From: Buxus sempervirens
Taxonomy: Eukaryota; Streptophyta; Magnoliopsida; Buxales; Buxaceae
Direction of reading: 5' to 3'
NCBI GenBank assembly: GCA_947561395.2
Contig: OX387185.1
Location: 30,484,213 to 30,548,212, forward strand
DNA: 64,000 bases
The translations under genes were made by a program, and so were the position numbers. Below are positions 4,117-42,978 of this stretch, one piece after another; the first letter of the stretch is position 1; the number at the start of each line of letters is the position of its first letter. The notes below the pieces were generated by a model. It was not told the origin of the DNA. It ran no database searches and saw only the letters and a list, made by a program, of their open reading frames with translations.

Positions 4117-4660
4117 GGATGGGGGTCTTCTTCAGTATTAATTTCTCATAGGCTTGATTGTATCGTGTTTACTATAGTTTGAGCGTGGCTGCTCCTTGTT
4201 GTGCTTGGTGGGTATGCCCACTATCTGCTTTGTACATACTTCCTTTTATTTAATCGTACCTTCTTAATTTCCAAAAAAAAAAAAAAGCTTATCAAATTCT
4301 CAAAATTCCACTCCCAAAAACAATCATTCAACAGAATTTTTTTTTTCATAACCGTGACATGCTTTATTTAACAACACTAACATGAAATAACACATTCGGC
4401 CATAACAATAACATGCTTTGTATTATTTTCACTTTGAAAATTTAACAATACTAAAAAAAATACTTGATTAAAGAATCAACAAATAAAATAAAATCAAAAC
4501 CTGGTATGGAGTCGATTTCCTGGAAACTGGTGAGCACAACTCCGGATGTTTCCCCCCTTTTTCTTGCACAAACTTCTTCCACCTTTTTTTTTTCTTCCTT
4601 CTTTGCTTTAAAGAACTCTCTCCTTTTTTTTTCACCTCCCTTTGCTCTCAACTTCAAGCC

Positions 4661-4672
4661 CTTTTATAGAGG
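4661..4672 (-). promoter_or_regulatory. TATA box in the G1 3' LTR
   Basis: On the minus strand the sequence reads CCTCTATAAAAG and is GC-bounded, as in many plant LTR promoters. It is conserved at 41091-41102 in the 5' LTR. It lies downstream of the AACTAACCC repeat array in element sense, so the array is U3 and transcription should start about 30 bp further left. Confidence 0.6.
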
Positions 4673-4871
4673 ATTCCCACCCCTTCAAATTCTTAATCCC
4701 AAACCTTTCCTCTTCCTCTTTTAAACCCTTAACTCTTCCTCTTCTTCTTCTTAAACAACTAACCCTTCTTCTTCCTCTCTTAAACAACTAACCCTTCCTC
4801 TTCCTCTTCTTAAACAACTAACCCTTCCTCTTCCTCTCTTAAACAACTAACCCTTCTTCTTCAACTAACCC

Positions 4872-7800
4872 AGGGGGAGCTAGGAGGCGGGATGAGGGGG
4901 ATGATTTCCTATGATTAAGATTGGAACGTGGAACATTAGGGGTCTTAATGACCCTGCCAAGCAAAGTGAAGTAAAAGCATTGATAGCTACTCGGAAAATC
5001 AGTTGTATGTGCCTCATCGAGACGAAAGTGAGACAAGTGAACTCGTATTTTGTGAAGAACTTGCTGTGTCCGAACTGGAGCTTGATTACTAATTACGATC
5101 AATCTATCAAAGGGCGTATTTGGGTACTGTATGATAACCAAATTTTGAGAATAAATACGATAAGTATAACGGATCAGATGGTTCATTGTTATATGGAGAT
5201 GTTTCTGGTTCAAAAGAGTTGTTTCTTCACTTGCGTTTATGGATCTAACGATTACAAGGAAAGGAGAGAGTTGTGGCAGCAGTTAAGGCATAACACAGTG
5301 GATTATCCTTGGATGGTCATAGGGGATTTCAACTGTGTGCGTAGCCAGGAGGAGAAGGTAGGTGGCAAAAGTGTCAAGCGGCAACCAACTGCGGATTTTA
5401 ACAATTGTCTAAACGCTTGTGCCTTGTCCGATTTGAAGTCCAAAGGGTATTTGCTTTCCTGGAGCAATAGAAGTTCATCTTCAAGAAGAATTGCATGCAA
5501 GCTCGATAGATCTCTTGTGAAAAAGGGTTGGATGACTGAATTCTCATCTTCGGAAGTGGAGTTTTTAAATCCTGGAATTTCTGATCATTGTCCGATGGTA
5601 GTAACTTTTTATCTGGATATTCAAGGGGGGGCAAGACCGTTTAGATTTTTCAATCATTGGTCTACTCATGAGAAGTTTATTCCTTTGGTAGCTGAAGCAT
5701 GGAAACACCAATTTCAAGGTCACCCAATGTTCCGTGTTGTAAAAAAGCTTCAGATGGTGAAAGCATCTCTCAAGGCTTGGAGTAGAAAAGAGGATTTCGT
5801 TAATATCTCGTGTAAAGTCGCTCAGCTTAGAGACGATTTAGCAGATATTCAGAGGAGGTGTTATGTGTCTACACCGGCTGAGGATGATGTAGTCAAAGAG
5901 AGATCACTAAGAGCTGAATTGATGAAGGCTACCAGAATTGAAGAATCACAATTGAAGCAAAAGTCCAGGATCTCTTGGCTACAGGAGGGGGATAAAAATA
6001 CGTGGTTCTTTCATAACCATGTGATCTCTAGAAGGGCTACAAATAAAATTCTCAGTAACACTCAAGAGGATGATAGTATCATTTCAGATCAAAAGGGTAT
6101 TAGTAGAGCCTTTGTGGACCATTTCTCGAATATTATGGGTAGAGATGACCCAATTGACTTGCAGAATTTCCCGTGTCTTCCTAGAAAGTTATCAGAGGAG
6201 CATGTTAGAAGTGTTATGGAGGAGGTTACAGCTGAGGAAATAAAGGTCACCTTATTCTCTTTAAAGGAGGATAAAGCTCCTGGAACAGATGGATTCACGG
6301 CTGCTTTCTTTAAGAAAGCTTGGGCGATTGTAGGGTCGGATGTGATAGAAGCTATTCTTAGCTTCTTCAAGGATGGTAAATTACTGAAGCAAGTTAATTC
6401 AACTACCATTACTCTTGTCACCAAGTGCCTTAATCCAGCTAAGGTATCTGACTTCAGACCCATTTCTTGTGTGAATACTCTTTATAAGTGTATTTCGAAA
6501 ATCATTGCTAACAGATTCAAGATAATCATTGGTGATATTGTTGGAGAATACCAAGCTGCTTTTATTCCGGGAAGGTCGATTGCTGATAATATTTTGTTAA
6601 CCCATGAGCTACTTCATAGCAATCATCTAAACAAAGGCATGCCGAGATGTGCTATTAAGGTTGATATTAGCAAAGCTTATGATTCAGTATCGTGGAAATG
6701 TGTAAGGAAAACGCTCTCTGTGCTTGGTTTTCCGCATAAGTTCATTGGGTGAGTGATGGAATGCATATCGACTACATCATACTCGATAATGATTAATGGC
6801 GGTATGAATGGTTTCTTCAAAGGTGCTAAGGGCTTGAGACAAGGTGACCCTATGTCCCCATATATCTTTGTTCTCATCATGGAAATGTTTAATGCTATTC
6901 TTCAAGAGAGCACTATCAAACCAGCTTTCAAGTTCTTCCCCAAGTGCTCCAAGTTGAACATCAAATTGGTAAGTTTTGCGGATGATTTGATAATCTTTTT
7001 TGCTGGTGATGAAGGTTCTATTGAATGTTGCATGGAAGCATTGTAGAAACTCCATATCATTTCAGGTCTCAAAGTAAACAATGACAAAACTACCATGTTC
7101 CTGGCCGGTATGGATGATAGTATGAAGAATTTTCTAAGTGCTAGATTTGGGTTGAAGCTTGGAACTCTCCCTATTAAGTACTTGGGGCTGCCGTTACTGT
7201 CTTCTAAGCTAACCCCAAGGGACTGTGAGCCATTGGTGTCTCACATAAAAATGAGAATCCAATCTTGGAAGAATAGCAACCTATTTTATGCGGGAAGGCT
7301 CACACTCATAAACTCGGTTCTATTCTCCATTGCAGTATATTGGCTTTCAATATTCGTCATTCCCAAATGTGTTTCCAATGAGATTCAAAAGGAGTGTCGT
7401 CACTTTTTGTGGGCTGGGCAGAACTCATCAAAAAAGGTATGCTCTATAGGTTGGAATGTTATTTGTGCACCAAAAGACCAAGGTGGGCTTGGGGTAAAAA
7501 GTTTGCATATCTGGAACAAGGCGGCCATTCTAAAGTATATATGGGCAATTGTCAACAAGTCACAATCACTTTGGGTGAAATGGACTCGAAGCTACCTCAT
7601 AAGAGACAGGAATTTTTGGGCAATACAATGCCCATCAAGGTGTACATGAATCTGGAGGAAGATTTTAAAAGCTAGATGCCATGCTGTAGACATTCTGAAG
7701 GCTAGAGTTTACAATGGTGTCGACACCTCGCTTTGGTATGATAATTGGCATCCAGATGGTCCAATTGTCCCAAGGTATGGGCATCGAATTGTTTATGATT

Positions 7801-8763
7801 CAGGCCTACATATTTCAGCACCGGTGAGTAGTATTATCGAGCATAATGAGTGGTCGGTTCCCCCAGCTGTCACCATAGAGGTCATGGAGGTATGGAGCAA
7901 ATTATGTTTACTACCAAAACCTGATGACTCAAGGGAGGATAGGGTGGTATGGACAGCGTCTAAATTAGGTGTGTTTGACATTGCGAGTACTTACAACTAC
8001 ATGCTTCCATCACTTCACCGGGTTCCATGGAAGAAGGTAGTGTGGTTTCCGTTGAACATTCCGCGGCATGCTATGATTTTATGGATGGCGATTAATAACA
8101 GCCTACTCACACTTGAAAAACTTCAGAAGTGGGGAGTGGTCTCCCAATCATCATGTGTGTTGTGTAGACGTGCTAATGAATCTCTTCACCATCTTTTCTT
8201 CATATGTAGTTACAGTTGGTAGGTGTGGAAAAGTATGCTCCAAACAAATTGCAAGCGTAGAACCAATCGAAGATGGACCAGGTTGATCGAGTGGATGGGA
8301 AGAAGATGTTCTAAAGCAAATCCAATCAATACCATCTTGAAGTTATCATTGGCAGCATCGGTATATCACATTTGGAGGGAAAGGAACAGGAGGTGCTTCA
8401 AGAATAGTTACTTGCCAGCTCAAGAGGTGAGTAATCATATTCGATTTGATGTCCAAGCAAGGTTGTCCAACTCCAGGTTCACAGTTAAGGATACTGACCA
8501 CAATAGGAAGGTCGTTGAAAATTGGGGTCTCACATCATCGTTTCAATTCTCTGGGCTATAGCATCTTGTATATCTCTTTAATGTATTGTATGTTTATGAG
8601 AAGGTGGGGTTTTTAGCCTAGAATAAGGTTCCTGCTGTATCCCGTGGGTAAGAGGTGGTTTCTATGGTTACCTTAGTGTGTACAGGGTATCCGTGTGTTG
8701 TCTGAGCCTATTGTAATTATTTTTCTCTATTAATATACTTTGGACTTAACTTCCAAAAAAAAA
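4872..8763 (+). mobile_element. LINE-C, LINE inserted in the U3 repeats of the G1 3' LTR
   Basis: This L1-type LINE is 5'-truncated at the very end of ORF1. It begins about 40 bp before the ORF2 start and ends with ACTTCC and poly(A). The target duplication AACTAACCC occurs at 4863-4871 and 8764-8772. Because the target is a tandem repeat, the exact duplication length is ambiguous. It has a 3' UTR of about 200 bp (8562-8754). Confidence 0.93.
4911..8561 (+). pseudogene. ORF2 of LINE-C, full length with four in-frame stops
   Basis: Full-length L1 ORF2 (1,217 codons) in one uninterrupted frame. The start is ATGATTAAG, giving MIKIGTWNIRGLND, the usual EN beginning. EN motifs are ETKV, GDFN and SDH. 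RT motifs follow with FADD near 6978, and then zf-RVT (CVLCRR near 8154). Premature stops lie at 6750-6752, 7044-7046, 7647-7649 and 8220-8222. The first and third replace a conserved tryptophan codon (TGG to TGA), as expected from methylcytosine decay. I see no frameshift. The TTCCTATGATT context fits the ATGA overlap with a lost ORF1 seen in other copies. Confidence 0.92.
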
Positions 8764-9406
8764 AACTAACCCTTCCTCTTCCTCTCTTAAACAACTAATC
8801 CTTCTTCTTCCTCTCTTAAACAACTAACCCTTCCTCTTCCTCTCTTAAACACCCTCATTCAATTAGGTTTGGTCAAAGTCCATTTTGTCCCACATTTTTA
8901 TTAGGCTTATGTATTTTTTAAGCTTTGTTTCAATATCTCAAGAGAATATGAGTTGGACCAATTCGTCCAACTCATTTCTCTTTGTTTATTTTTATTATTA
9001 TTATTTTTTTAATCTTAAACTTTTATTAACTTTGTTATTTATTTGCATAAGAAACCCCATTAGGAAACTTACTTATTTACTAAAACAACCCCACAAAATT
9101 TTAATTTGTCATTGGTTACATGGCAGCCACCATGGCGTACACGTGGCTGCCATGTGGCATCCAATTTCGGTTTTGTAAAAATCCCCAAACTACCCTTTAA
9201 TTATTTGATTCATAACTTAGCCGTTTGACATCCGATTTGAGCACGGTTTGGTGCATCAGAATCGGCTCAGAATTCTCTTTATTATGGGCTTGTTATTTCA
9301 AAAAGATGGGTCCACTATAAAAACCTTGATTTACGTGCCCACCATATATGCCGGTTTAAGATATGCTTCTTGGGCAATTTTATAGTGCAAAAATGGGGTG
9401 CTGACA

Positions 9407-9422
9407 GCTGCCCCTCTTTTTC
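9407..9422 (-). other. Polypurine tract of G1
   Basis: On the minus strand the sequence GAAAAAGAGGGGCAGC abuts the LTR start TGTCAGCACC. A purine run next to an LTR 5' end is the primer for plus-strand synthesis in LTR retrotransposons. It fixes the element's orientation and the inner edge of the 3' LTR. Confidence 0.85.
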
Positions 9423-9733
9423 AGAGTCACCAAGGTGATGAATGACAGAATAAAAAGAACCCTATTTTTGCATTTTGCATTTTTGTCGACATAACTGATG
9501 AGTCAAGTCCTTTAATGTTTTCAAAGATGTGGAAGCGCCGGTGCAAGCTCTACGTTGCTTTGACTCACTTCCCAGTTCTGGGGAATTTCCTTGCCGTTGG
9601 GCGTTTGGAATTGTTCCCTTTTTTTTAGTTTAAGTTGAAAATGATGGGTTGGACTTAGACTCACCAACTTGTTTCGGCGTTGATGCAAAAATGCTCTTTT
9701 CTTCTTGTTTGTTCCATTGACTTTTGACTTCTT
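9423..9733 (-). other. G1 interior next to the PPT, noncoding
   Basis: This is unique-looking, T-rich interior sequence between the PPT and LINE-D. No protein domain is seen on either strand. The last 15 bases (9719-9733, GACTTTTGACTTCTT) are one copy of the LINE-D target duplication, and the interior resumes at 21052. Confidence 0.7.
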
Positions 9734-9931
9734 TTTTTTTTTTTTGGAAATTAGTTAAGTTCCATTAGTAAAGGAAAAAAAAAAGATATAATGTACAACC
9801 GAGGTCGATGCCGACAAGGAGATTAGTCCAATCTCCAACCACAACAAAACATAGACCTACTCACCTATGCAACATAGTTACAACGAACCATCCCCCAATA
9901 AGTCTCACACGGCCTAGAGAGATGTCAACAC

Positions 9932-12382
9932 TCATGCATGACCACTATGTGGTTTCCACGAAATCCCCCAATTATGTAGGACTTGTCTCGCTCTTACACT
10001 ATCAGGGGGAGAGATACTAATCATTGCAACTTTGTCCTTAATATCAGCTATCACAATCGTATGAACCCTTTGTGCTGGGAGATAACTTGCTTTAAATACT
10101 CGTCTGTTCCGCTCCTTCCAAATGTGGTAAACACTTGCTACAAGAGAGAGTCTAGCAAGGGTATTATCTAACCCTGGTCTTGTGAACTCGATCGATGCCC
10201 ATTGAATGAGGTCCTCCCAAGTCCTCTGCAATGGTGGGATACCATTCTTTTGTAGAAGCTGCTTCCATATTTTCCAACTGTATGTGCACTCAAAGAAGAG
10301 ATGTGGAATGGACTCCTCCTGCTGTCTGCAAAGGACACATGTTTTGGTCCCCACAATGCCCCAATCAAACAGTCTGTTGACTGTAGCAAAGCCCTTCTTA
10401 AAAGCGAGCCAGAGAATGAAGGAATGCCTCGGAATACAAGGCGTGGCCCATACCAACTTTGACCATGTCACAGCTGGTTTATGAGGTAGTAATGCTCTGT
10501 ACGTTGCTCCCATGTCAAATTTTCCAGACGATGACGGGGTCCATATAACCTCATCATCAAGACTACTATCAGGCTTAGGCATGAGGTCAAGCTTATTCCA
10601 TATGTCAATCAGATCTGGTGAGGCAGCAACTGGCGGATCCCATTCCTGTTGGTTAATAATCTGCTCGACCAATGCTGCTTTATGCATGCCAGAGTCATAA
10701 ATCATTCTCTGCCCATACCTGTCAAAGAGAGGACCATCCACATGCCAAGCATCATACCATAGTGATGTGCTTCTTCCATTATGAACAATATGCTTCACAA
10801 ATGATCGAACTTTGTCTCTATTTCGCAGGATCTTCCTCCATGCCCACGAACATGAGGATGGTATATTCAGCTCCCAGAAATTATGGCCTTTGAGAAGCCA
10901 TTTATACACCCATGCAATCCACAAGCAGTCCTCCCTTGCTAAGATTCTCCATATGTGTTTGAACACAGCAGCTTTGTTCCATTCGTTCATTCTGAATAGA
11001 CTAAGTCCTCCAACTTCTTTCGGGGAACAAACCGAATCCCAGCTCACTGGAACAATCTTCTTCCTGGTATTTGACCCTGTCCATAGGAAACATCTGCAGG
11101 TTTTATCAATTTCCTTCAACACTCCTTTAGGGAGTATAAAATTTGATATCCAGAAGATACATATAGATTGAAGCACTGACTTTACAAGGATGAGTCTCCC
11201 TGCATAAGAAAGGTTTCTACACTTCCATGATTGCAATCTAGCTTGGACTCGGTCCACAAGCGGCTGACAGTCTTTTGCCGATATTCTAGTTGATGTAAGT
11301 GGTAACCCAAGGTACTTTACTGGTAGATCACCCAGTTGCAGGCCGGAACTCTCTAGCATTGAGAGCTTCATATTCTCTTCAACCCCACAGAAGTAAATCG
11401 AGCTCTTCTCCTTATTAGATTTCAACCCTGCCACCTTCTCAAGTTTCTCAAGACTTTGAAGCATACACTGCATGGATTGCTTGTCCCCATGGCAAAAGAG
11501 AAAAAGGTCATCAGCAAAACACAACATCTTGATGTTTTGAGCTTGGCATCTATGATGGTACTTGAAACCAACTCTCGTTGTTTCCTCAAGTTGCATTTTG
11601 AACATCTCCATTACCAGCACAAACAGGTATGGGGAAAGTGGATCTCCCTGCCTAATCCCATTCGTTCCTTTGAAGAACCCTGTTAGACCTCCATTTATCA
11701 TTAGTGAAAATGAGGGAGTAGATATGCATTCCATGACCCATTCTGTAAATTTTGGGGGGAACCCCATTCCAATGAGAATACTTCTAATACATACCCATTT
11801 GATGGAGTCGTACGCCTTGCAAAGATCAACTTTCATGGCACATTTTGCATGTGGGCTTTGCAGGTGGTAGTTATGCATCAACTCATGAGTGAGTAATATA
11901 TTATCTGATATACTTCTCCCTGGGATGAATGCTGACTGGTACTGCCCAACTAAAGAAGATATGATCCCTTTAATTCTGTTTGCCAAAATCTTTGAGATGC
12001 ATTTGTACAATACGTTAACACAAGAGATAGGTCGATAATCAATAGCCTTTTCTGGATTGCTACACTTGGGAACCAAAGTGAGAGATGTGGCATTCATTTG
12101 CTTGAGCAACTTACCTGAAGTGAAGAAGTCCTTTATTGCTTCAGAGACATCCTTTCCTACTACTGCCCATGCACATTTAAAAAACTTAGCTGTAAATCCG
12201 TCAGGTCCTGGCGCTTTGTCATCTTTGAGGGAAAACATGGTGCTTCTAATCTCTTCCATCGTGATATCAGCTTGAATCACTCGAGCTTGCTCCTCAGTCA
12301 GTTTACTATAGAATTCAGGCATATCAACTTCCTCATGTATGGGACTTGAATAGTTGCCCAAGAGCCTTTGGAAATGCTGCAC
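9932..12382 (-). CDS. ORF2 of LINE-D, RT to zf-RVT part, open
   Basis: This is an open run of 816 codons covering the linker before the RT, the whole RT and the zf-RVT finger. RT landmarks are KAPGPDGF (near residue 55), KAYDSIKW, GIRQGDP, and the catalytic FADD at residue 289 (11507-11518). The finger reads CVLCRQ with HLFFECTYS downstream. The protein ends about 85 residues after the finger without RNase H. Just upstream (12424) the gene is interrupted by LINE-E; the EN half continues at 17173. The Met at 12382 is only the first ATG of the open run and not the real start. Confidence 0.88.
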   Translation of the reverse strand: MQHFQRLLGNYSSPIHEEVDMPEFYSKLTEEQARVIQADITMEEIRSTMFSLKDDKAPGPDGFTAKFFKCAWAVVGKDVSEAIKDFFTSGKLLKQMNATSLTLVPKCSNPEKAIDYRPISCVNVLYKCISKILANRIKGIISSLVGQYQSAFIPGRSISDNILLTHELMHNYHLQSPHAKCAMKVDLCKAYDSIKWVCIRSILIGMGFPPKFTEWVMECISTPSFSLMINGGLTGFFKGTNGIRQGDPLSPYLFVLVMEMFKMQLEETTRVGFKYHHRCQAQNIKMLCFADDLFLFCHGDKQSMQCMLQSLEKLEKVAGLKSNKEKSSIYFCGVEENMKLSMLESSGLQLGDLPVKYLGLPLTSTRISAKDCQPLVDRVQARLQSWKCRNLSYAGRLILVKSVLQSICIFWISNFILPKGVLKEIDKTCRCFLWTGSNTRKKIVPVSWDSVCSPKEVGGLSLFRMNEWNKAAVFKHIWRILAREDCLWIAWVYKWLLKGHNFWELNIPSSCSWAWRKILRNRDKVRSFVKHIVHNGRSTSLWYDAWHVDGPLFDRYGQRMIYDSGMHKAALVEQIINQQEWDPPVAASPDLIDIWNKLDLMPKPDSSLDDEVIWTPSSSGKFDMGATYRALLPHKPAVTWSKLVWATPCIPRHSFILWLAFKKGFATVNRLFDWGIVGTKTCVLCRQQEESIPHLFFECTYSWKIWKQLLQKNGIPPLQRTWEDLIQWASIEFTRPGLDNTLARLSLVASVYHIWKERNRRVFKASYLPAQRVHTIVIADIKDKVAMISISPPDSVRARQVLHNWGISWKPHSGHA

Positions 12383-12627
12383 AAAAGTGTCTTTAACCCT
12401 TGGAGGATCCGTGATTGTCTGCCCTTCAGAATCCTTTTTTTTTTTTTTTTTTGGAAAGTAAGTCCAAAGATTATATTAAGAAAAAGAAATGTACAAGAAG
12501 ATGCCCAAAGCAAATGGAAAACAACCATACATGCCACTACCGGCATAACAAGATAGACATGACAATTCTATGAATCACAATACATGTATCACTATGTACT
12601 CCTCATAGTAAGAATCCATGAATCCCA

Positions 12628-15600
12628 CTATGGTGCTGTAGGCATTATACACCAATTCTGGCAAACACGAGAGGCTTCATGGCACATATCGTTCCTCTCC
12701 TCCCTTGAGAACTTGAGCCTAAGGTCCATAATCAGCCAATTGTCAAGATCTTGGGGTGGCATCGCCTTATTTTGGAAGATCCTTCGATTCCGCTCCCTCC
12801 AAAGGTGGTAAACCGCAGCTGCCATTGAAGCTTTCCTTAGTTTGTCAACTAATCTTTTCCCACGGAACCTCTTGGTAGCCCACTCGATGGTAGCACTCCA
12901 TGAAGCTGATGTCCTTGTAATGCCGTTCCGCTTCAACGTATTCTCCCATATATGGTTGGAATACCAGCATCCAAAGAAAAGATGGTCCACATTCTCGTTA
13001 TGCATCCTGCAAAAAGGGCATTGTGAAGAGCTTACCACATTTAGGCTAAGAAGAAGGTCCTGAGTGAGCAATCTTCTGTGTATGGCAAGCCAAAGGCAGA
13101 ATGCATGTCTAGGTACATTGCCATCAAACCAAACAAGATCCCACCATGCCACGTTTTGCCCACTCACACGAAGCGCATGATAAGTATCTTTGATTGTAAA
13201 CCGCCCTGAAGGGGATGGCAACCATAGTACTTGGTCGTCTTTGGTAGGATCAGGCTGCATTGCATTGTGTAGCTTGTTGCCCACCTCTATCAAGTCATGA
13301 GAGACTGCCGGCAGATCCCAATGGTTATCATCAATTATCACGGCCACATTAGCATTCCTTGGAAGTCCAGAATCATAGATAATTCGGTCCCCATACCTGG
13401 AGTGGATAGAATCATCAAATAACCAATTATCATACCATAGTGAGGTTCGGTTCCCATTTCCAATTTTCATCTTGATGAAGCGTGATACTGTGTCTCTCAA
13501 TTTCAGAATCTTGCGCCATGCCCAAGTTGCAGAAGTTGGGGTCCTCACTTGCCAGAGCGACTTGTTCCTCAAGTTATTTGCTTTTATCCATTTGACCCAA
13601 GGGGAGTTGTCGTCCACAGCTAGTCGCCAAATGTACCTACTTAGAGCAGCCTTGTTCCAATGATGTATGTTGATAATTCCCAGCCCTCATTCACTTTTGG
13701 GGGAGCAAATGGCAGCCCACGACATAGGGGTAATACGTCTTCTTGTCTCAGCTCCTGACCATAAGAAGTTCCTGCACATTTTATCAACCTCTTCTAGAAC
13801 CCTCTTTGGCAGACAGAACACAGATAACCAGTGCACTGCTATGGCAAAAAGCACTGATTTGATCAATTGAAGTCTTCCTGCATATGACAAGAATCGTGCT
13901 TTCCAAGTTTGAATTCTATTCTTTATCTTCATCAGTAAAGGCTCACAATCCACAAGTCTTAACCTTGTAGATATAATTGGTACCCCCAAATAAGTAACGG
14001 GAAGAGAACCCAAGACAACGCCATACCTGTCCACAATTTGTGTCTGTATCACCAAGGGAGTGGCGCTCATGAAAATCTGACTTTTGGATGGATTGATTCG
14101 GAGACCGGATAAGTTACCAAACAGTTCTAGAGAGTGAAAGATAGGGTCCATAGACCCGAAGTCCGGTCTGGAGAAAATCATCAAGTCATCTGCAAAACAC
14201 AAAGCCCTAACCCCTGTCCTGTTGCACTTCGGGTGGAAGAGAGCCCCATTTTGTGTGTGAGTCGTTAGAATTCCCATGAATAACTCCATGATCAGAACGA
14301 AGAGGTATGGTGACAAGGGATCCCCCTGACGAAGACCCCTCTTGCCTTTAAAGAACCCCACAAGTCCACCATTCAAGACAAGAGAGTACGCTGGTGAAGT
14401 TACACACTCCATAATCCACCCAATAAATCGGTCCGGTAAATTCATAGCCTTCAGAAGCAGGGGAAGAAGGTCCCATCGAACTAAATCAAACGCTTTCCTG
14501 ATATCCACCTTCAATGCACAACGTGATGGTCCATTGTGCTGATGATAGTTGTGGAGCACCTCTTGAGCAATGAGAATGTTATCCACCATCTTTCTCCCAG
14601 GAATAAAAGCAGTTTGGAACTCTCCAACCAGACTCTCAATGACGTTCTTGAGTCTATTCGCAATAATTTTAGCAATACACTTATACACAGTATTCACACA
14701 AGCAATGGGCCTGTAATCTGCAACTGAGGTGGGATTCTGACTCTTGGGGACCAAGGTAAGAAGTGTTGCATTTAGCTGCTTAAGGAGGCGACCATCAATG
14801 AAGAAGCTCTTAATAGCCTTAATAGTATCGTTACCAACAATGTGCCAAGCCTTCTTGAAGAAAATAGGAGTGAACCCATCCGGGCCTGGGGCCTTATCCT
14901 GCTTGAGACCAAATAGTGTTGATTTAATTTCCTCATCAGATACTTCCTTAATTAGACCAAGCGAGGTCTCCGAGTCAAGCCTTCTTGAGATGAAGTGGTT
15001 AATCTCCCCAGTGTGCCGAGAATGCGGATCTTGAGTACCCAATAGACGAACATAGAAATCCTCAAACACTTTTTGTATCTCTTTCCACTCAACAAATTTT
15101 GACCCGTCCTCATCATAGACTGAAAGGATTCTGTTGTTAGCTCTTCTGCTGGTGAGGGAGGCATGGAAAAAGTGAGTATTTGAATCCCCTTCCCGTAGCC
15201 AACTAACCCGGCTCTTCTGCTTCAGTTGAGCTTCGAGGTTTCTGTCTGCCACAATGAGCTTTGAGGATAGCTCCTGTTCCTTTTTTCTGAAAGCCACATC
15301 CTGGGGATTAGTAGCATGGCTCCTTTGGCATAATTCCAGTTCCTTTCTAATAGTCTGCACCTGGCCTTCCAGATTTGCAAATTCATGCCTACTCCATTCT
15401 TTGAGGGCATATTTTACGGCCTTTAACTTCCTCACAAGACAGAACATTGGGGACCCTCTCACCTGGATAGACCAAGCTTGCTCCACCAGTGGGATAAACT
15501 GCTCATGGAAGCACCAAAAGTTGAAGAATTTGAACGGCTTGGGCCCTGAACCAAAGGTCTGTGAGATAGAGATGATCGCTGCACTATGATCAGAAATTCC

Positions 15601-16263
15601 CGGGGGGATGAAATCAGCTTCTGAATTAGGAAACTCCTGCAGCCATTCAAGGTTAATCAACACTCTATCCAACTTGCATTGAATTAAGTTTGTACCTGGG
15701 CTCTTGTTACTCCATGTATGGATTGAACCCTTGTATTTCAGGTCTGAGAGACAGCAGTAATCAATTAACTCGTTAAATTCATTGGTTGCCTGCCCATTAA
15801 TTGGTTTTCCGCCACACTTCTCCTGGGTACTTCTAACACAGTTGAAGTCTCCCATTATGATCCAAGGACATCCAGGGCTTGAGTGCTTGATGTCATACCA
15901 TAGCGATCTCCTCATTCTGAAATCATTCATTGCATAAACAAATGATGCCATGCAAACCTGCTGAGTTGATAGAATACCAATTTGACAGTGTATCATTTGA
16001 TCAGAGACAAAACAGGGGTTTACTACCATATCCTTCGGATTCCAGCACAACCATATTCGGCCTTTCAATGCCTTGGCATAATTGTCCACCGAACTCCATG
16101 AAGGGCAAATAGCAGATAGCACCATCGCTTTATTTATACTCCTTACTTTAGTCTCCACTATACATATTAAGTTAATTTTGTTTTTCTGGATTAGAGATCT
16201 TACCTCACACTGCTTAGCAGTGTCATTCAACCCTCTTATATTCCAAGTAGCCCACTTAATCAT
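12628..16263 (-). pseudogene. ORF2 of LINE-E, full length with one in-frame stop
   Basis: ORF2 of 1,211 codons plus stop in a single frame from ATGATTAAGTGGGC at 16263. EN covers about residues 1-230 (WNIRGLN at 6-12, ETKV, MGDFN, SDH). RT follows with KAPGPDGF, GLRQGDPLSPYLF and the catalytic FADD at residue 690 (14185-14196). The zf-RVT finger (CPFCRM, HLFFGCWYS) lies near residue 1,080. One premature TGA at 13687-13689 falls just after the RT, where relatives have the first glycine of GGLGI. No frameshift is seen, which makes this one of the best preserved ORF2 copies in the window. The start overlaps the ORF1 stop as ATGA. Confidence 0.92.
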
Positions 16264-17141: not shown

Positions 17142-17172
17142 ACATTGAGGTATAAGGTACTTCAGAATCCTT

Positions 17173-21051: not shown

Positions 21052-21066
21052 GACTTTTGACTTCTT

Positions 21067-25576: not shown

Positions 25577-25592
25577 ATGGGAGCAATATCTT

Positions 25593-34181: not shown

Positions 34182-35839
34182 TGGGGGTAAGATGGTTGCT
34201 GGGATCACTACAAGAACCACCTGAACCGGGTAAGAGAGATAAACTTGCATTCCAGGCTTCCTTCATTGCAAATTCATCCACCAACAATCTTTTCTTGATT
34301 CTCTTACGCTGCTTCTTTGAGAGAGAATTGGAGCTTGTGCATGTGTTCGGAACTTCACTCAATAGATCAAACTGGTTGGGGCTCGACACGATACCATCAT
34401 GACATATCTGTGACAGTGGCCTAGATCGAATATGATTACTGTTCAGAATGGTGTCCACGACCACCACTTGCTTGCCTTTGGAAATACTCAACGAGGGCAT
34501 GGTCGATGGCCTCGTTAGGATCAGCATGACTAGCCAAGTGGACGTGCTGTACAGGTTCCACATTTCCATCGAGAGCCACTGGTTCCACTTGTTTAACAGC
34601 CCCAACCTCTTTAACCGCTGAGGGAGTATTAGGAGTATTAGCCAACACCTCTGAGGATTCACATGCCACCGCCACCGCCTCCCCACGTTCCTCATGATCC
34701 ACCAGATCAACAGGTTCCGAAAGCTTTTTTTTTTTTTGGAAGTTAACAGGTTCCGAAAGCTGTCCCCCCACAGTGCTACCATCAGGGAATTCAGAAACAT
34801 CAAGGATAGAATTGAATGTTCTCCCGGTGGGTCTCCATTCTCTAGCTCGTACCCTGGAGCATCTGGTGTCTGAGTGTCCAAAAACGTCACATACCTTGCA
34901 TTTGATTGGTTTCCATCCATACTCAATAGAGATTACAGACCTGGCATTATTAGCATCATGCTGAATAAAGACCTTATCAGGGAAGGCACAAGTGGTGTCA
35001 ACTTCAACACACACACGGGCATAACTCAACTTGGATTTCTTCTCCGTCATCTCATCAAGAAATAACGGCTTGCCAATGCCACTAGCTATAATACTTAACC
35101 CTGTATGTGTCCAAAGTTCAAGAGGAACATTGAATAGCTTGACCCAGATTGGGACTTTAGACAGTTGAGACTTTTCGAGAGTTAGGTTTGGCTCCCATTC
35201 CTTGATAACAAATAGCCGGCCAGCCATGTACCAGGGACCCTGGTGAAGCACCTTATCTCTGACATTGTTGGACGAGAATCTGAGGATATAGAACCCGTTT
35301 TCAATGCTAGATATCTCCACTTTCCCCCATATCTTTGATGCAATGCTTTTGATAACACTTAGAGGCAAGCTTCTGTCTAAAAAGTATCCTATAAGACAGT
35401 CCTTCCAATGTTGGATACCTTCATTAATCACCTCCAAAGGCGGTGAGACCACAACGTTACCATCGATAATTTCAGGAGCAAAAAACGATAATTTTGTTTT
35501 GCTGGCCAGCTCACATTGGAAGAGGTCAGACCAGGACTTTCCTTTGGAGGAAAGGTTCAAATTCTTCCCAACACCTAGCACAGGAGGCGAGCCAAAACGA
35601 GGGCCTGGAACGCTGCCATGTTCCAGAGCCACAGAGCCAACCTGAACCGCCCCACATCCGCTGCTGCACTGACCGAAGTCAGCGCCTGTTGGAGGACGCA
35701 AAGGCGGGAACGATTCACCAAGCAAGACTCGCCGATTGGTCAACTCGGCCTCCCCCTGGTTCACAAATGGATCGCCTGCCGGAGCCGGAGCAAGGATACC
35801 TGGGCACCGGGAAGACACCGGGACGGTAGCCGACTCCAT
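34153..35839 (-). pseudogene. ORF1 of LINE-G, frameshifted, with a 36-bp in-frame addition
   Basis: Starts at ATG 35837-35839. It has the DUF4283-like domain (GYFLDRSLPLSVIK, WYMAGRLFVIKEWEP), LPIWVKLFNVP-like block (here VPIWVKLFNVPLELW), SYARVCVEV and the knuckle CKVCDVFGHSDTRC. At 34725-34744 a 20-nt LINE stub and its 16-bp duplication add 12 codons in frame. The frame shifts near 34480; the true C-terminus, with KKRLLVDEFAMKEA, continues in another frame to a stop at 34153-34155. Here ORF1 overlaps ORF2 by about 29 bases and not by the four-base ATGA seen in the other families. Confidence 0.87.
34725..34744 (-). mobile_element. 20-nt LINE stub with 16-bp target duplication
   Basis: Between two perfect copies of AACAGGTTCCGAAAGC (34709-34724 and 34745-34760) lie 13 T and then GGAAGTT. 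In sense this is AACTTCC followed by poly(A), the same terminus as LINE-C and LINE-I. It is best read as a LINE insertion aborted after copying the tail and seven element bases. Confidence 0.85.
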
Positions 35840-36830
35840 AATCGCTCAGAGAAGCCTCCCGGCTTCCATACAACTCAGAGCCTCCCCACAGTCACAGGCC
35901 ACACCAACTGTATCGAATTCAAGCACAACCCAAATACCACGAACAACTCCAACTGTATCGAATTCAAACACCTTAAATCTGGGTAATGGAATTCCACGAC
36001 CAATCCCGCGAACAACTCCACGACCAATGCCACAGACCACTGCCGGAACCCCACTTCCAGGACCACAACAACGAAACGTTAGCCTGGATGATGGATACAC
36101 CAACGAACGACGAACGAGCTCCGTCAGCACTCTTACTCCACGAACATATTCTTTGGCTAACCACAGCAGCTCTGAGTTGCTCACCAGCGATAGCCGACGA
36201 GCAAGAGGAGAACCTTCTGCTCACGAACCTTACTACCAAAGCTGTCTTGAAGAGAACACGTACCAGAACCAGCGAATATCGGAACGGCGCCTCAAGAAAA
36301 CCAGGCCATGCACACGAACAGCACCTCGGGCAACCTCAGACCAGATCTGCAGACCACCACGAACCTCAGACAACCACCTCAGATAGCCACAGAACAACAC
36401 CTCAGACAACACCTCAGACCATCACGAACAGCATCTCAGACCACCAGAAACCACCACGAATCAGCACCTTAGACCGAGACAGAACCTCAGACCGAAACAG
36501 AACCCCAGTCCACCACAGACCACCTCCGACCACCACAAACCACCTCAGACCACCTCAGAACAGAACCTCCTACGACCATGAACCACCTCGAACAGCACCT
36601 CATACCACCTCAGAACGGCACCTCAAACCACCGCGAACCACCACGAACCACCTCACCACAGCACCTCAGCACCACCACGAACCTCAGCACCTCAGCACCA
36701 CCACGAACCTCAGCACCTCAGACCACCGCGAAGCACCACGAACCTCAGACCACCTCAGCACCACCACGAACCTTAGACCACCTCAGCACCACCACGAACC
36801 TCAGACCACCTCAGACCACCTTCACTTATT
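35840..36830 (-). promoter_or_regulatory. 5' UTR / internal promoter region of LINE-G, with CACGAAC repeats
   Basis: About 1 kb upstream of ORF1. On the plus strand it is a degenerate array of CCACGAACCACC, CACGAACCTCAG and CTCAGACCACC words, densest at 36340-36825. A unit AACAACTCCAACTGTATCG (35943 onward; partial copy near 35900) also recurs. In element sense the shared word is GTTCGTG, as in the LINE-D 5' UTR. Long proline/threonine-rich frames on the plus strand (35736-36891) are by-products. The outer edge near 36830 is approximate. Confidence 0.6.
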
Positions 36831-37063
36831 GGAAGCGGTATTGTTGGCACTTCTGCTCGTGGTGGAAGTGGTGGTTGGTGCTGTTGAGTGATTGGAACTA
36901 TTGGTTGAACTTGTTTCAGATCCTTGATCTCTGCCATGAGGGACTGAATAACCATAGTCATGTTTTCGACCTTTTGGGTTAGGTCATTAACCACTTGGGT
37001 TTCACTAGATTCCGCTTGGTACTGAGCTGGCGGAGTCTGATTTCCTTGTGCATCCATATCCAA
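36831..37063 (-). pseudogene. gag of G1, first part, cut by LINE-G
   Basis: The minus-strand frame starts MDMDAQGNQTPPAQYQ at 37063. It has a short helical stretch with heptad-like spacing (VVNDLTQKVENMTMVIQ) followed by a proline-rich part, as at the start of Tat/Ogre-type Gag. It is interrupted near 36830 by LINE-G; the remaining gag sequence lies at 25922-27257. Confidence 0.75.
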
Positions 37064-37329
37064 TCTTTTGCGAGATCGAAGATTGTATGGGCTTCTGGGA
37101 GCAATTTTGGATACTTGTTGATCATTTTACAAAAGTTAGTGCATTTATTTGGCAATTAATCATTTTTACATATCTTTTTATGTTTGTTTGTTTGTTTTTT
37201 TTTTTTTTTTTTGCTTTTGGAATCTATTTGCATATTCTTAATTTTTTTTTCTTTTCCATGGTCAATCTAGATCAAATTTGTGATTTGATTTAACTGTATG
37301 GAAGCAACTTAGGGGGAATCTTTGAAAAT

Positions 37330-37622
37330 GTATCTTTTTAGTTATACAAAGGCAACTGGGAGAGAAAACTTGAAGGAATGATCTGTTTTAGCTGTACAAA
37401 GGCAACTGGGAGAGAGAACCCAAGGTAGTGATCTATTTTAGTTACATAAAGGCAACAGGGAGAGAGAACCCAAAGTCTAGAGGTCTATTTTAGTCATTTT
37501 GTGAACGACTGGGAAAGAGAACCCAAGGGATTGATCTGTTTTAGCTGCGTCAAGTCAGCAAAGAAAGAAAACCTATAGAATTTGATCTATTTTAGTCGCT
37601 TGAGACAAGGAAAGAGAACCTC
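37330..37622. repeat. Tandem array, about 56-bp unit, six imperfect copies, in G1 leader
   Basis: The unit runs roughly GATCTATTTTAGCTGTACAA then AGGCAACTGGGAGAGAGAACCCAA. The two cores, TTTTAG and GAGAGAACC, recur at intervals near 55-58 bp. Copies diverge toward the right end. Confidence 0.8.
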
Positions 37623-37679
37623 TTGGTTCATGCCCTAATGAACCGGAGCTTGTTTATAATGAATTGAACTCAATATCAC

Positions 37680-38115
37680 GGGATTGGACTTATGTCTCCG
37701 CAGGGGGTGAGCTAAAAAACAACACCCGGGCTCACCCGGCTGGTCTCCAATTTAAGAATCGGTCGCCAGGAGCCACAATTTTTGGACTCAAGTCGAGTCT
37801 CCGTAGGGAAAGGGCTAAAAATAGCCACCTCCGGGTTCACCCAGTGGGTCTCTGATTTAAGAATCGGTCACCAGGCACCACAAGTTTTGGACTTATGTCT
37901 CCGCAGGGGGTAAGCTAAAAAGCAAATACCCTGGTTCACCCAGTTGGTCTCCGATTTAAGAATCGGTCACCAGGCACCACAATTTTTGGATTTATGTCTC
38001 CGCAGGGGGTAAGCTAAAAAGCAAATACCTGGGTTCACCCAGTTGGTCTCCGATTTAAGAATCGGTCACCAGGCACCACAATTTTTGGACTTATGTCTCC
38101 ACAGGGGAAGGGCTA
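37680..38115. repeat. Tandem array, about 99-bp unit, four to five copies, in G1 leader
   Basis: Units start near 37686, 37787, 37888, 37987 and 38087 with GGACTTATGTCTCCGCAGGG. Each contains GCTAAAAA and TTTAAGAATCGGTCACCAGG. The third and fourth copies are nearly identical, which suggests recent unequal exchange or slippage. Confidence 0.85.
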
Positions 38116-39732
38116 AAAATAGCCACCTCCGGGCTCATCTGAAGGGTTGGTCTTGACGGGGCGATCTTCAAATGCCACCAATTTGGATCGTTGGATCCAG
38201 GGCAAAAACCGAGTGATCTTGTGAATAAGATGCATTCGGGTGTGATTTGAGTTCAATCCATGAGTGCTTTAAGAAACGCCTATAGGTATTAATATTAGAA
38301 TAATTAAAGAGTAGGATTAGAAGCAAGAGGTCTAATGTGACCAGATATCGCGGTTTTGCATAACCGAAAATTGGGGTTTTTCCAACAAGCATCTGCAAAT
38401 TGTTTTACTGTTTTTTTTTTATGCTTTTGTTCTGTCCATTCAAAATTAGAATTAAAGCATTAAACTGAAATAAAAAGTGTGTGATCCTAAGGGTTGGTGC
38501 CTGTCAAGGCACGACTTCTAGACATACTTGTGTAAGGAAGCACACCCAAGTCCTGACCAGCCTTATTCTTTTATCTGCTCTTTCATCTGTTGATGTAAAA
38601 CTTACAACTTGCCAGCTAGGGAGAAAATTACATGATGTTCAAAAAACTGAAAGAGAATGCAGTCTTAGGGTTTTCGAGAACTCTAAGAAAGGATACATTT
38701 AATTCAAAAAGGGTAGGTTAAAAAGGCCTAAATCTAGGGTTCAAATTTCTCGGTTCTGATCTGGCCTGCTTTCATTTGCTTAAAGATTGATCCGGACTCA
38801 AGATACTTCCTACGGACTCAATGGGTCGAGGCCCACGGCTCTCAGGACTCAATGCATGGATCTGGGGTGGTTCCCCTGATCAAAGTTTAGTAGGTAAGCT
38901 CCCTAATTTAGGGCTGAGGTAGCCCAGAATCTAGGGTCTACTCAATTTGATACAAAAGAAGACAAGGGTTGTTGCCTCTGATGGACTCTTGGGTTTTAGA
39001 TTTCATTCATCATTCACATTCACATTCACATTCACATAGTAGGGTGTATCAAAGCATTAGGTGGGAAAAGGGTACCCAGCCCGAGACAAATGCCTACAAG
39101 GGTCTGAGCCAAGTATTAGATCCTCGCATACCACGGCAAGAAACCAGTGGCACTATAGGAATCCAGATACCTGGGGGGATGTTTTACCTCGCTTTCCCTG
39201 GCAAGCCAAGGGCGCGTGAGGCTAATACCATCCCAAAATTTGTTTATACGATAAAGAAGGGTGGCTGCTAGAGAGATCTAGGTTTTGGTAATCATTCAAT
39301 CGGATCACCCACGCGGGGTCCCTCGCGCGTGTCACCCCACACAATTTATATCAAAGCATCTAAAGAAACCACAGTGTGTGTGAGTGCACATGTGTGCATG
39401 GGAAGTAATTTTCACTGTCTCATATAGTAAAGTGATGAATTGGTACACAAAACAATGTTCCGGGAGAGTTCCCAGGTAATTGGAGGGGTCACAGTGGTCC
39501 CACTTAAAAACCAATTTCCTTAGGCAATTATCTCGTCCTTTATGACAGAACTCCCCAGAATATGTTCTTGTATATATTCAACACTTACTAAATAAGACGG
39601 CAAATCTTCCTTGACCCATTTGTGCAAGTGTGTGCATATGTACAAAAAGAGTGTGCGTGCATGTGCAAGTGTGTGCACATGTGCAAAGAATAAACCCATT
39701 ATAATCCAACTAATCAAACCGGGTGAGGTCGG

Positions 39733-39750
39733 TCCCCAGCAGAGTCGCCA
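39733..39750 (-). other. Primer-binding site of G1
   Basis: On the minus strand TGGCGACTCTGCTGGGGA lies three bases after the LTR end. It begins with TGG, as a PBS complementary to a tRNA 3' CCA must. From memory it matches the tRNA-Arg type PBS of Ogre-like elements; the tRNA identity should be confirmed by search. Confidence 0.8.
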
Positions 39751-41090
39751 AGCTGTGCGCATCTCGAGCGCGTTGAAAAAGCGTGTTACATGTTTTATGG
39801 AGTCGCCACTACCTGAAATGGTGCAGGTAGACACCACTTTGACTTTTGGTCTGAACCAGTGATTCCGGATAAGTGACCTAATTACAACCTAGGGAAGTCC
39901 TTGAACACCCTGAGTTGCCCCACCAAAATGGGTTTCCTTAAATTAGTTGGATAATATTTGGGTTGTTTTACTATTATTTAATTCTTCTTTTTTTTATCTT
40001 TTATATATTTTTTATTTATTCTTTTTATGATCACATGTATACAAATATTGGAGGAATGAAGGTTGCTATACTACATCATGTATAATACTTATATAAAAAA
40101 TCCAAAATAATGAAATCTAAATCAAACATTTTATCATGGAGCAATGTACTTGGTTACTTCAAAATATATTTTTTTTCTTTTTCTTTTTATTTTTTATTTA
40201 TTGTTTTTATCTTATCTTTCTCATATATACAAGAGATTAGAGGAATTAACATGCTCCATTATCCCAATCATTTTTTATTGTTTTCTTATTTTTTTATGAT
40301 AATTTATTTGCACAAAGCATGTGTAAAAAAATTCAATCATATTTAATCATTGAAGATTACACTTTATTTTTTTCCATTTTTTAAGGATTTGGATAAGATG
40401 AGAAGTGTTATAAGAAATTAATAAAAGTTACAAATGTTTAAGCCTATGATTAAAATTAAATATGGCAGTTAAGCCTATTATCTAAGAATTAAGAAAAGAA
40501 TAAAAAAAATCTAGTTAGTATAGTTAAATATGTTAATTAAGCATATTATCTAAAAATAATTAAGAAATTAAGAAAAGAATTAAAGAAATAAAGAAATAAT
40601 AAATGAAACCTAGGGGTTCTTAAAAAAGGGTTTTAAAGAAGGACTAAACATAAAATACAATAAGTTCTTTTATAAATCCTTGAACTTTTCAGAATAGCAA
40701 ATTAGGCATGATAGCTTATCAAATTCTCAAAATTCCACTCCCAAAAACAATCGTTCAACAGAATTTTTTTTTTCATAACCGTGACATGCTTTATTTAACA
40801 ACACTAACATGAAATAACACATTCGGCCATAACAATAACATGCTTTGTATTATTTTCACTTTGACAATTTAACAATACTAAAAAAAATACTTGATTAAAG
40901 AATCAACAAATAAAATAAAATAAAAACCTGGTATGGAGTCGATTTCCCGAAAACTGGTGAGCACAACTCCGGATGTTTCCCCCCTTTTTCTTGCACAAAC
41001 TTCTTCCACCTTTTTTTTTTCTTCCTTCTTTGCTTTAAAGAACTCTCTCCTTTTTTTTTTTTCACCTCCCTTTGCTCTCAACTTCAAGCC

Positions 41091-41102
41091 CTTTTATAGA
41101 GG
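41091..41102 (-). promoter_or_regulatory. TATA box in the G1 5' LTR
   Basis: CCTCTATAAAAG on the minus strand, identical to the copy at 4661-4672 of the 3' LTR. It lies about 60 bp downstream (in element sense) of the U3 repeat array. Confidence 0.6.
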
Positions 41103-41372
41103 ATTCCCACCCCTTCAAATTCTTAATCCCAAACCTTTCCTCTTCCTCTCTTAAACCCTTAACTCTTCCTCTTCTTCTTCTTAAACAACTAACCCTTCTT
41201 CTTCCTCTCTTAAACAACTAACCCTTCTTCTTCCTCTCTTAAACAACTAACCCTTCCTCTTCCTCTTCTTAAACAACTAACCCTTCCTCTTCCTCTCTTA
41301 AACAACTAACCCTTCTTCTTCAACTAACCCTTCCTCTTCCTCTCTTAAACAACTAACCCTTCGGACTCTGGA

Positions 41373-41951
41373 TTGTTTGATATAAGCAGCACTTATAGGA
41401 AACTTGATATTGGCCATACTGCAGTATGTTGGAGTGGGTTGGTGTGGTACCCAAATAATATTCCCAGGCACGCTTTCATACTATGGATGGCTATCCGTCT
41501 TGCCGTATTGACCAAAGATAAACTTTTCAAGTGGGGACTTATTCAAGGGGCGACATGTGTTCTATGTAGGAGGGAGGACGAGACCACCCAACACTTGTTC
41601 TTTGAGTGTAGCTACTCTAAAGCCATATGGAGGAAGTTGATGAGGAGAAATTGCTTGCGATACTCAGGTTTACAATGGGAAGCTCTTATACAGTGGGGCT
41701 CACTGAATTGGGTTTCTAATAATCCGATTAATTTACTTAGAAGGCTATCATTGGCAGCAACTGTGTATCATGTTTGGCTTGAGAGAAACAGGAGGATCTT
41801 CAAGAATGTGGCTCTACCTCATGGGGATGTTTGCAAGTTCATTTACCAAGATGTTTTATCACGTTTGCATGGTACTAGTTTCACAGTTAAGGACAATGAC
41901 GTCCATAGACAGGTCCTTGCTAATTGGGGTCTTAATTGGTTGTTAGTTTGA
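41373..41951 (+). CDS. ORF2 C-terminal part of LINE-I
   Basis: Open for 192 codons to the natural stop. It contains NIPRHAFILWMAIR, zf-RVT (CVLCRREDE, HLFFECSYS) and the tail RRLSLAATVYHVWLERNRRI. It is a fragment without RT or EN, so it has no likely function. Confidence 0.85.
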   Translation: MFDISSTYRKLDIGHTAVCWSGLVWYPNNIPRHAFILWMAIRLAVLTKDKLFKWGLIQGATCVLCRREDETTQHLFFECSYSKAIWRKLMRRNCLRYSGLQWEALIQWGSLNWVSNNPINLLRRLSLAATVYHVWLERNRRIFKNVALPHGDVCKFIYQDVLSRLHGTSFTVKDNDVHRQVLANWGLNWLLV

Positions 41952-42088
41952 TTACGTCTTTGGGGTCTTTGTGCATGCAATGTTTGTATATTGAGTACCC
42001 ATAGTTTGTGGTGTTCCCGTGTGTACGGTTGGTTGGGTGATGTGGGCACCCTCTCTTGTACATATTGCTTATCTTCTTAATGGAACTT

Positions 42089-42256
42089 TTTTTTTTTTGG
42101 AAGGTAAGTCCAAAGTGATATATTAAAATAAAGATATGTACAATGACAAGTCAAACAAAATAACCCAATGTGCTCCTTAATGTATCAGGGCACATGACAA
42201 GAACACAAGAGGATACAAGATTACCCAATCATCACCTTACAAGTTCCCACTCACCT
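42089..42256 (-). mobile_element. 168-bp LINE 3' stub inside LINE-I
   Basis: T-run then GGAAGGTAAGTCC (sense GGACTTACCTTCC plus poly(A)), flanked by the perfect 16-bp duplication CTTCTTAATGGAACTT (42073-42088 and 42257-42272). Only 3' UTR is present. The terminus is of the type seen in LINE-E and LINE-L. Confidence 0.88.
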
Positions 42257-42978
42257 TCTTAATGGAACTTACTTAACTTCCAAAAAAAAAACTAACCTTT
42301 CTTCTTCAACTAACCCTTCCTCTTCCTCTCTTAAACAACTAACCCTTCTTCTTCCTCTCTTAAACAACTAACCCTTCCTCTTCCTCTCTTAAACAACTAA
42401 CCCTTCCTCTTCCTCTCTTAAACACCCTCATTCAATTAGGTTTGGTCAAAGTCCATTTTGTCCCACATTTTTATTAGGCTTATGTATTTTTTAAGCTTTG
42501 TTTCAATATCTCAAGAGAATATGAGTTGGACCAATTCGTCCAACTCATCTCTCTTTGTTTATTTTTATTATTATTATTTTTTTAATCTTAAACTTTTATT
42601 AACTTTGTTATTTATTTGCATAAGAAACCCCATTAGGAAACTTACTTATTTACTAAAACAACCCCACAAAATTTTAATTTGTCATTGGTTACATGGCAGC
42701 CACCATGGCGTACACGTGGCTGCCATGTGGCATCCAATTTCGGTTTTGTAAAAATCCCCAAACTACCCTTTATTTATTTGATTCATAACTTAGCCGTTTG
42801 ACATCCGATTTGAGCACGGTTTGGTGCATCAGAATCGGCTCAGAATTCTCTTTATTATGGGCTTGTTATTTCAAAAGATGGGTCCACTATAAAAACCTCG
42901 ATTTACGTGCCCACCATATATGCCAGTTTAAGATATGCTTCTTGGGCAATTTTATAGTGCAAAAATGGGGTGCTGACA

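Follow-up and report, generated by a model that had tools for sequence, protein, structure and literature searches.

Gag-only long terminal repeat (LTR) elements are often treated as leftovers. Terminal-repeat retrotransposons with GAG domain (TR-GAGs) were reportedly described by Chaparro et al. in 2015, and LTR swapping in soybean is said to have been reported by Du et al. in 2010. For Inpactor, the TR-GAG criterion is worded as the presence of only a gag domain, or of gag and protease domains (PMC6022998). A Copia gag-only element with a 562-aa Gag is described as transposing in Arabidopsis ddm1 plants (Kirov et al., 2021; PMC8704663), and in the account of the wheat element Quinta the non-autonomous partner is thought to contribute gag (PMC11302176). 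Partner switching is described for the Angela elements of wheat (PMC9744471), and for Onsen of Arabidopsis co-packaged RNAs are reported to recombine in pairs while they are reverse-transcribed (PMC5668417). The window analysed here, which is the full 64,000-nt stretch C6:30484213-30548212 of the 676.5-Mb Buxus sempervirens genome, holds on its minus strand the LTR element G1. It is very probably a dead copy of a multi-copy gag-only family of the TR-GAG type, which belongs to the Ogre branch of Ty3/gypsy and is most likely moved by a coexisting autonomous partner family.

The evidence comes mainly from related copies. The open stretch 26677-25922 of the G1 gag served as the query for a genome search, in which this 251-aa C-terminal stretch gave 151 matches, 150 of them scored out of 9366 candidates. 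Among these best 150, no row at 94-100% identity has a frame longer than 561 aa, and 546-547 aa is a frequent length. At 88-90% identity, 18 of the matches listed have frames of 2512-2516 aa, and 16 of the 18, including the recombinant L072 discussed below, are free of stops where they match the query. At 72-78% identity follows a third tier, with frames of up to 2807 aa. Genome-wide, a pattern for the junction of gag with its stop codon (up to three mismatches) occurs at 70 sites spread over many contigs, with no site for the reversed control, and the gag-pol junction at the corresponding place occurs at 49 sites, also with a control of 0.

In all 30 gag-only loci that were fetched, the gag stop is followed by the same noncoding segment. 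This middle segment is about 1.5 kb long in 26 of the loci, lies in two pieces in L045, and measures only 327-335 bp in L039, L040 and L048; L039 and L040 are G1 and its duplicate, where a long interspersed nuclear element (LINE) interrupts it. The protease-reverse transcriptase (RT)-RNase H stretch of the partner, searched by tblastn at E 0.001, matches none of the 30 loci within 1.5 kb after gag, and the partner pol including integrase finds nothing better than E 2.0 in the full interiors of L069 and L070; hidden or degraded pol was rejected on these grounds. L069 and L070 share the order leader, gag (547 and 546 aa, respectively), 1.9-kb segment, 1.05-kb 3' part, polypurine tract (PPT) and an LTR of about 2.0 kb. 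Gag is their sole interior frame of at least 150 aa, and that of L069 matches Pfam Retrotrans_gag (1.2e-12). The preliminary description of the window had named several copies with the same gag-to-PPT interior and no pol as support for such a family, which is what the junctions and the pol-free loci amount to; the opposite outcome that it had named, related copies all bearing pol, is contradicted by the 70 gag-stop junctions.

To judge from sequence, the G1 family fits every TR-GAG feature that was checked. It has two LTRs with a primer binding site (PBS) and a PPT, flanked in G1 by the target-site duplication GTGGC; it is multi-copy; the RT stretch is absent from the 1.5 kb after gag in the fetched loci, and RT and integrase from the whole interiors of L069 and L070; and gag stands alone in L069 and L070, the frame being broken in G1. 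A large retrotransposon derivative (LARD), with its non-coding interior, does not describe these copies, whose gag frame (546-547 aa) bears the mark of purifying selection, and the BARE-2 type, in which gag is lost and pol kept, is the reverse of what was found.

Alternatively, G1 may be a mere pol-deleted relic of an autonomous Ogre element, with no family of its own. Internal deletions are common in plants, and the leader, gag, 3' end and LTR of L069 are 88-98% identical to those of the partner slices L071 and L073. The relic had been dismissed beforehand on the grounds that LTRs, PBS and PPT are all present; this argument proved weak, because a relic that has only just lost its pol would still have all three, and it is the family evidence that decides. 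A single junction shared by 70 sites was taken to rule out a pol-deletion relic, and a single duplicated block is excluded as their source because the sites lie on many contigs. Furthermore, a segment missing from the partner is present in each of the 30 fetched loci, and two dated insertions are recent. A relic is thus very improbable.

The partner that had been postulated is indeed present, as a distinct pol-bearing set with nearly the same LTR, represented by the 49 gag-pol junctions. L071 and L073, adjacent slices of one partner copy, give the order 495-aa open reading frame 1 (ORF1, with a plant mobile domain), gag, RT, RNase H, second RNase H and integrase. Pfam finds PF10536 (7.8e-22) and DUF7745 (2.5e-23) in ORF1, RVT_1 and RT_RNaseH in L071, and RVT_3 followed by Integrase_H2C2 and rve in L073. 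L069 is 97.1% identical to the partner over its first 1.37 kb and 97.6% over its last 3.1 kb (leader, 3' part and LTR), and gag DNA identity between L069 and L071 is 93.5%. The 1.9-kb segment is missing from the partner save for a 111-bp patch at 72%, and the idea that it is the partner's own 3' region was rejected for this reason.

On the basis of domain order and plant mobile domain, the partner can be claimed for the Ogre clade. In the survey of Neumann et al. (2019; PMC6317226), 57% of Ogre elements are credited with an ORF that lies ahead of gag and has a plant mobile domain, and a second RNase H is also ascribed to Retand. The partner resembles this clade in its upstream ORF and in the second RNase H between RNase H and integrase, and differs from it in having a single open gag-pol frame of about 2515 aa where Ogre is reported to have two, with a spacer or intron between them. 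That layout is treated there as an average feature and not as a requirement, the spacer being an intron in two legumes (PMC6317226).

A search with ORF1 gave 87 matches, 86 of them scored out of 8444 candidates, and the 51 rows with at least 83% identity were used. Among the matches listed, ORF1 lies upstream in 39 of the 49 gag-pol junctions and in 7 of the 70 gag-only ones, and in only one of these seven, at C3:10159303, is it stop-free. This ORF1 is 100% identical to that of the partner, and the associated gag (L050) falls within the gag-only clade, which looks like a recent re-acquisition of ORF1. For C3:33259312, a distance rule had pointed to a further ORF1 ahead of it, but the protein search gave no support for this.

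Gag-only and gag-pol copies are connected by recombination. The gag tree comprises 29 gag-only and two gag-pol rows (L039 was left out as a duplicate of L040), with L071 as the only ORF1-bearing partner. Within a gag-only subclade of this tree lies the ORF1-less gag-pol copy L072. At the 94 sites that differ between L070 and L071, L072 has the gag-only state 70 times and the partner state twice up to 3921, and the partner state in all 22 cases from 3925 onwards, so that the breakpoint lies between 3921 and 3925 (Fisher 2e-19). This pattern is most likely the result of one recombination between a gag-only RNA and a partner RNA within gag. L072 has a frame of 2516 aa, and its LTRs are identical over 1576 bp. 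By its site pattern, L072 is a single-crossover recombinant, through which the gag-only lineage would have regained pol.

The LTRs may have been exchanged as well, judging from a tree of 29 LTR tails (L010 was left out as a duplicate of L009; L023 and L037 were unlabelled). It consists of two fully supported subfamilies, both of which hold gag-only and gag-pol copies. That of G1 contains 10 gag-only and two gag-pol copies; the other contains four gag-only, 11 gag-pol and two undecided copies. The gag-only label is partly clustered, with seven changes compared with a shuffled mean of 10.0 and values as low in 19 of 500 shuffles. The gag-only copies L017, L025, L026 and L028 stand among partner LTRs on end branches of 0.2-0.4%, several forks being weakly supported.

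Two dated gag-only insertions are recent: their LTR pairs, compared over the 3' 1576-1578 bp, differ by 2 substitutions in 1578 bp and 0 in 1576 bp. The values for the partner and for L072 are 1/1578 and 0/1576. The ratio of nonsynonymous to synonymous rates (dN/dS), calculated for 8 of the 14 gag-only copies with a long frame, is 0.13-0.56 among these copies, the top value belonging to the closest pair, and 0.07-0.12 against the partner L071. In six pairs, replacement changes fall below the neutral expectation (p 3e-5 to 3e-25), for which the analyst chose a share of 0.77. Sequence comparison thus indicates that gag is under purifying selection in the gag-only copies.

These findings suggest a division of labour. 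Most likely, the gag-only copies produce capsid protein of their own, while their copying and integration fall to the enzymes of the partner, whose LTRs, PBS, PPT and leader are nearly identical to theirs. Both RNAs are probably packaged together, because the recombinant L072 exists. We infer co-packaging, use of the gag-only Gag protein and, from the recent insertions and recombinants, mobilisation in trans. For a TR-GAG moved by a partner, as proposed in the preliminary description, the 70 junctions, the lack of pol after gag in 30 of 30 fetched loci and the 49 partner junctions provide the support.

The gag-only copies might be passive, with gag as a leftover and the partner supplying everything, including the capsid. 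Non-autonomous elements without any gag exist (LARD), and 17 of the 30 fetched gag loci lack a complete frame. These losses stand against 13 loci whose gag is open all the way from MDAQ to its native stop codon, low dN/dS between gag-only subclades and, in a commoner gag-only family described below, frames of 542-574 aa in 49 of the best 150 rows; passivity is therefore unlikely. The main mover may also be an Ogre family other than the 2515-aa partner, for example one with frames of 2804-2807 aa. L003 (C1:3317286-3320295) and L008 (C1:4097651-4100660), from other families, begin their LTR as G1 does and have a PPT like that of G1, so that more than one helper with suitable ends may exist, and the middle segment is common to another gag-only family. 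However, the four young gag-only LTRs lie within the partner cluster, with the weakly supported forks already mentioned, and the sole recombinant found joins to the partner, which makes another main mover distinctly improbable.

Several points nevertheless weigh against a gag-only family that is mobilised by this partner. G1 itself is inactive, and its LTRs diverge by 1.3-1.4% in the window, the last 956 bp being only 95% identical, no better than in unrelated copies. The complete gag frame is absent from more than half of the fetched loci, as given above, and only two gag-only and two gag-pol elements were dated. The selection signal may stem partly from an earlier autonomous background. No protease is found by Pfam in the partner slice, where a 34.5% match to the protease ORF of a second element of the window points to a probable one. 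Finally, the helper need not be the partner alone, since the LTR start and PPT are common to sister families.

The middle segment is far more frequent than the G1 family. A 34-letter word of it occurs at 755 genome sites (control 0), ten times the 70 junctions. In L079 and L080 (801 bp each), the end of a gag and its stop are followed by this segment, with no pol in those 801 bp; it is collinear with that of L069 and 77% identical over 552 and 440-452 bp. A search with the gag end of this commoner gag-only family gave 150 rows, 150 scored out of 7596 candidates, among which no frame exceeds 574 aa. Its gag-stop word occurs at 351 sites (control 0). The downstream part of its other rows is undecided, their frames being short. 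The gag of the G1 family is only about 80% identical to that of the commoner family, over 62-67 bp, and thus closer to that of the partner (93.5%), yet the segment after the stop is common to both gag-only families and not to the partner. In L039, L040 and L048 this segment is truncated, and they were not used for the middle-segment tree. The 3' region of the 2804-2807 aa family was rejected as its source, as L076 gave patches of 68-72% over 76-198 columns and some shorter patches.

From these comparisons, the gag-only junction likely comes from an older gag-only lineage, and the LTR, leader and most of gag from the present partner via recombination; the older origin is drawn from two sequenced loci, L079 and L080. 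Rather more tentatively, the gag stop and noncoding segment could form a heritable cassette that is template-switched among Ogre backgrounds and outlives its partners, a possibility to which we give slightly less than even weight. Traffic would go both ways, because L072 regained pol and a full 2516-aa frame.

As a separate observation, members of the commoner gag-only family follow one another at even steps of about 10-11 kb at C12:5108259-5151238, C14:39903303-39944300, C6:22762376-22796758 and C9:1504800-1515741. Frame lengths within a row are mostly the same or nearly so, except on C6. Such rows resemble arrays that might arise from unequal exchange between LTRs.

The features of G1 are compiled in the table. 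Both LTRs start with TGTCAGCACC on the minus strand (9397-9406 and 42969-42978), as had been noticed before. By self-comparison, 8760-9419 pairs with 42333-42991 at 98.0% and 4286-4862 with 40713-41292 at 97.8%. The Kimura two-parameter distance is 0.0125 (646 bp) between 8760-9406 and 42333-42978 and 0.0141 (575 bp) between 4287-4862 and 40714-41292, and over the 1221 aligned bp inside the window the two LTRs are separated by 16 substitutions. Position 4287, previously taken as the limit of G1, is the insertion point of a LINE. The missing left-LTR stretch, searched genome-wide (best 40 of 1103 candidates), has a match 20 kb to the left of the window, at C6:30463615-30464574. The 3' LTR resumes at C6:30464584, where LTR sequence gives way to foreign sequence exactly at the 4287 break, with the common word AGCTTATCAA, and ends at C6:30463612, 20.6 kb left of the window. 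With this continuation and the 5-bp GTGGC on both flanks, G1 therefore has two LTRs and a target-site duplication; its length is about 63.6 kb, insertions included. TGTCAGCACC alone was discarded as a family count (1863 sites versus 246 for the control), because only four of eight fetched sites are LTR-like (L003, L004, L007 and L008).

The other parts had also been recognised correctly. The PBS TGGCGACTCTGCTGGGGA is read at 39750-39733, 3 nt past the LTR end; it is probably the usual Ogre-type PBS. The PPT adjoins the LTR start, and a near-identical tract, GAGGGGCAGC, precedes the 3' LTR in L069, L070, L073 and L074. The gag pieces are collinear with L069 and L070 (window 37494-36831 and 27259-25577); the 3' piece has no single readable frame, with 20 stops in the frame tried, and the stretch 25922-26677 alone gave no Pfam match. 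Readable pol after gag had been denied, and RT or integrase traces downstream had been named as a possible refutation; when the interior of G1 in the window, as 21240-23410 and two shorter pieces, was searched by tblastn with the pieces of the partner pol, the best E was 3.8, and this refutation did not come about there. The burial under LINEs is confirmed for the six ORFs scanned that interrupt or follow G1: RVT_1 occurs in five, zf-RVT in three and an endonuclease in one, and the sixth has DUF4283. This copy is dead, its gag being disrupted by LINEs, stops and frameshifts.

Table. Features of G1 and its insertions, listed from the 5' end of the element (window positions)
Feature	Position	Strand	Remark
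Target-site duplication GTGGC, right	42979..42983	.	left counterpart C6:30463607-30463611, beyond the window
5' LTR	39754..42978	-	TG at 42978, CA end at 39754 (GCGCACA)
5'-truncated LINE in 5' LTR	~41350-42290		inside 29-bp tandem repeats
Primer binding site TGGCGACTCTGCTGGGGA	39733..39750	-	3 nt past LTR end GCGCACA
Leader, short form without ORF1	37058..39732	-	partner copies have the 495-aa plant-mobile-domain ORF1 there
gag, 5' piece	36831..37057	-	ATG at 37057, MDAQ...
Nested LINE block within gag	27258..36830	.	
gag, 3' piece	25922..27257	-	native stop codon 25922-25924
Middle segment, part 1	25577..25921	-	noncoding, in the place of pol in gag-only copies
LINE insertion	23408..25576	.	
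Middle segment, part 2	21836..23407	-	96% to L069
3' noncoding part	21137..21835	-	common to partner family
Nested LINE block	9746..21136	.	
Final part of 3' noncoding region	9423..9745	-	ahead of PPT
Polypurine tract	9407..9422	-	abuts LTR start
3' LTR, first piece	8760..9406	-	
LINE in 29-bp tandem repeats of 3' LTR	4875..8759	+	
3' LTR, second piece	4287..4874	-	LINE with site repeat AGCTTATCAA separates the last 960 bp, C6:30463612-30464584

In both G1 LTRs, LINEs have inserted into the same 29-bp tandem repeats (of the type TTCCTCTTCCTCTCTTAAACAACTAACCC; 4686-4874/8752-8880 and 41087-41380/42267-42453), which suggests a preferred LINE target in this LTR. Two LINE copies in opposite orientation, 419-2910 and 31355-33846, are 99.3% identical, an indication of recent LINE activity. 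The second Ty3/gypsy element of the window lies on the plus strand at 61224-63736 and extends past the window. It has a gag (PF03732, 5e-10) and an aspartic protease (gag-asp_proteas, 6e-5, below the cut-off), which the partner pol stretch matches at 34.5%. Rfam gave no match at the gathering score in the window.

The nested block is duplicated 408.68 kb away, C6 ~30054939-30116236 corresponding to the range from 20.6 kb left of the window to about 40 kb within it. The two blocks show 0 differences in 956 bp, 0 in 501 bp, and 1 in 3753 between L039 and L040, so that the near-identical second copy reflects either a segment duplicated recently in the genome or a duplication made by the assembly. 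L009 and L010 differ at 192 of 3501 places in an unaligned comparison, which is probably due to an indel because the offset shifts by 1.

Among known systems, TR-GAGs are LTR elements with gag as the only frame beside an autonomous relative, as here. The TR-GAG of Kirov et al. is, in their account, of the Copia type; here it is an Ogre-type Ty3/gypsy element, in which a conserved noncoding segment replaces pol and a recombinant with the partner exists. A TR-GAG of the Ogre clade was not found in the literature searched, judged from the search listings. By analogy, the G1 family may work like the wheat pair RLG_Quinta and RLG_Cereba, a gag-only and an autonomous element described as sharing the PBS, the LTR ends and the regulatory LTR half (PMC11302176). 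That pair is centromeric and its gag genes barely align in DNA, whereas here gag identity is 93.5% and a crossover lies within gag. Non-autonomous lineages that take over autonomous LTRs, as in soybean swapping and Angela, are matched here too; in contrast to them, the no-pol segment seems to be retained across backgrounds, and pol was regained once. In the neighbouring Tat lineage Retand, non-autonomous members are recently active, domain-deficient and thought to depend on complementation; they mostly lack gag, and none of those described in PMC11963269 is gag-only.

One genome thus contains gag-only copies, some dead and some recent, together with their partner, both kinds occurring with and without ORF1, and in addition a recombinant whose breakpoint is sharp. 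This allows counts instead of analogy on the question of parasite or capsid contributor and on the reversibility of autonomy loss. TR-GAGs and such partnerships are already known; the G1 family is noteworthy for being unusually well preserved, for the recombinant and for the no-pol segment that it shares with another family.

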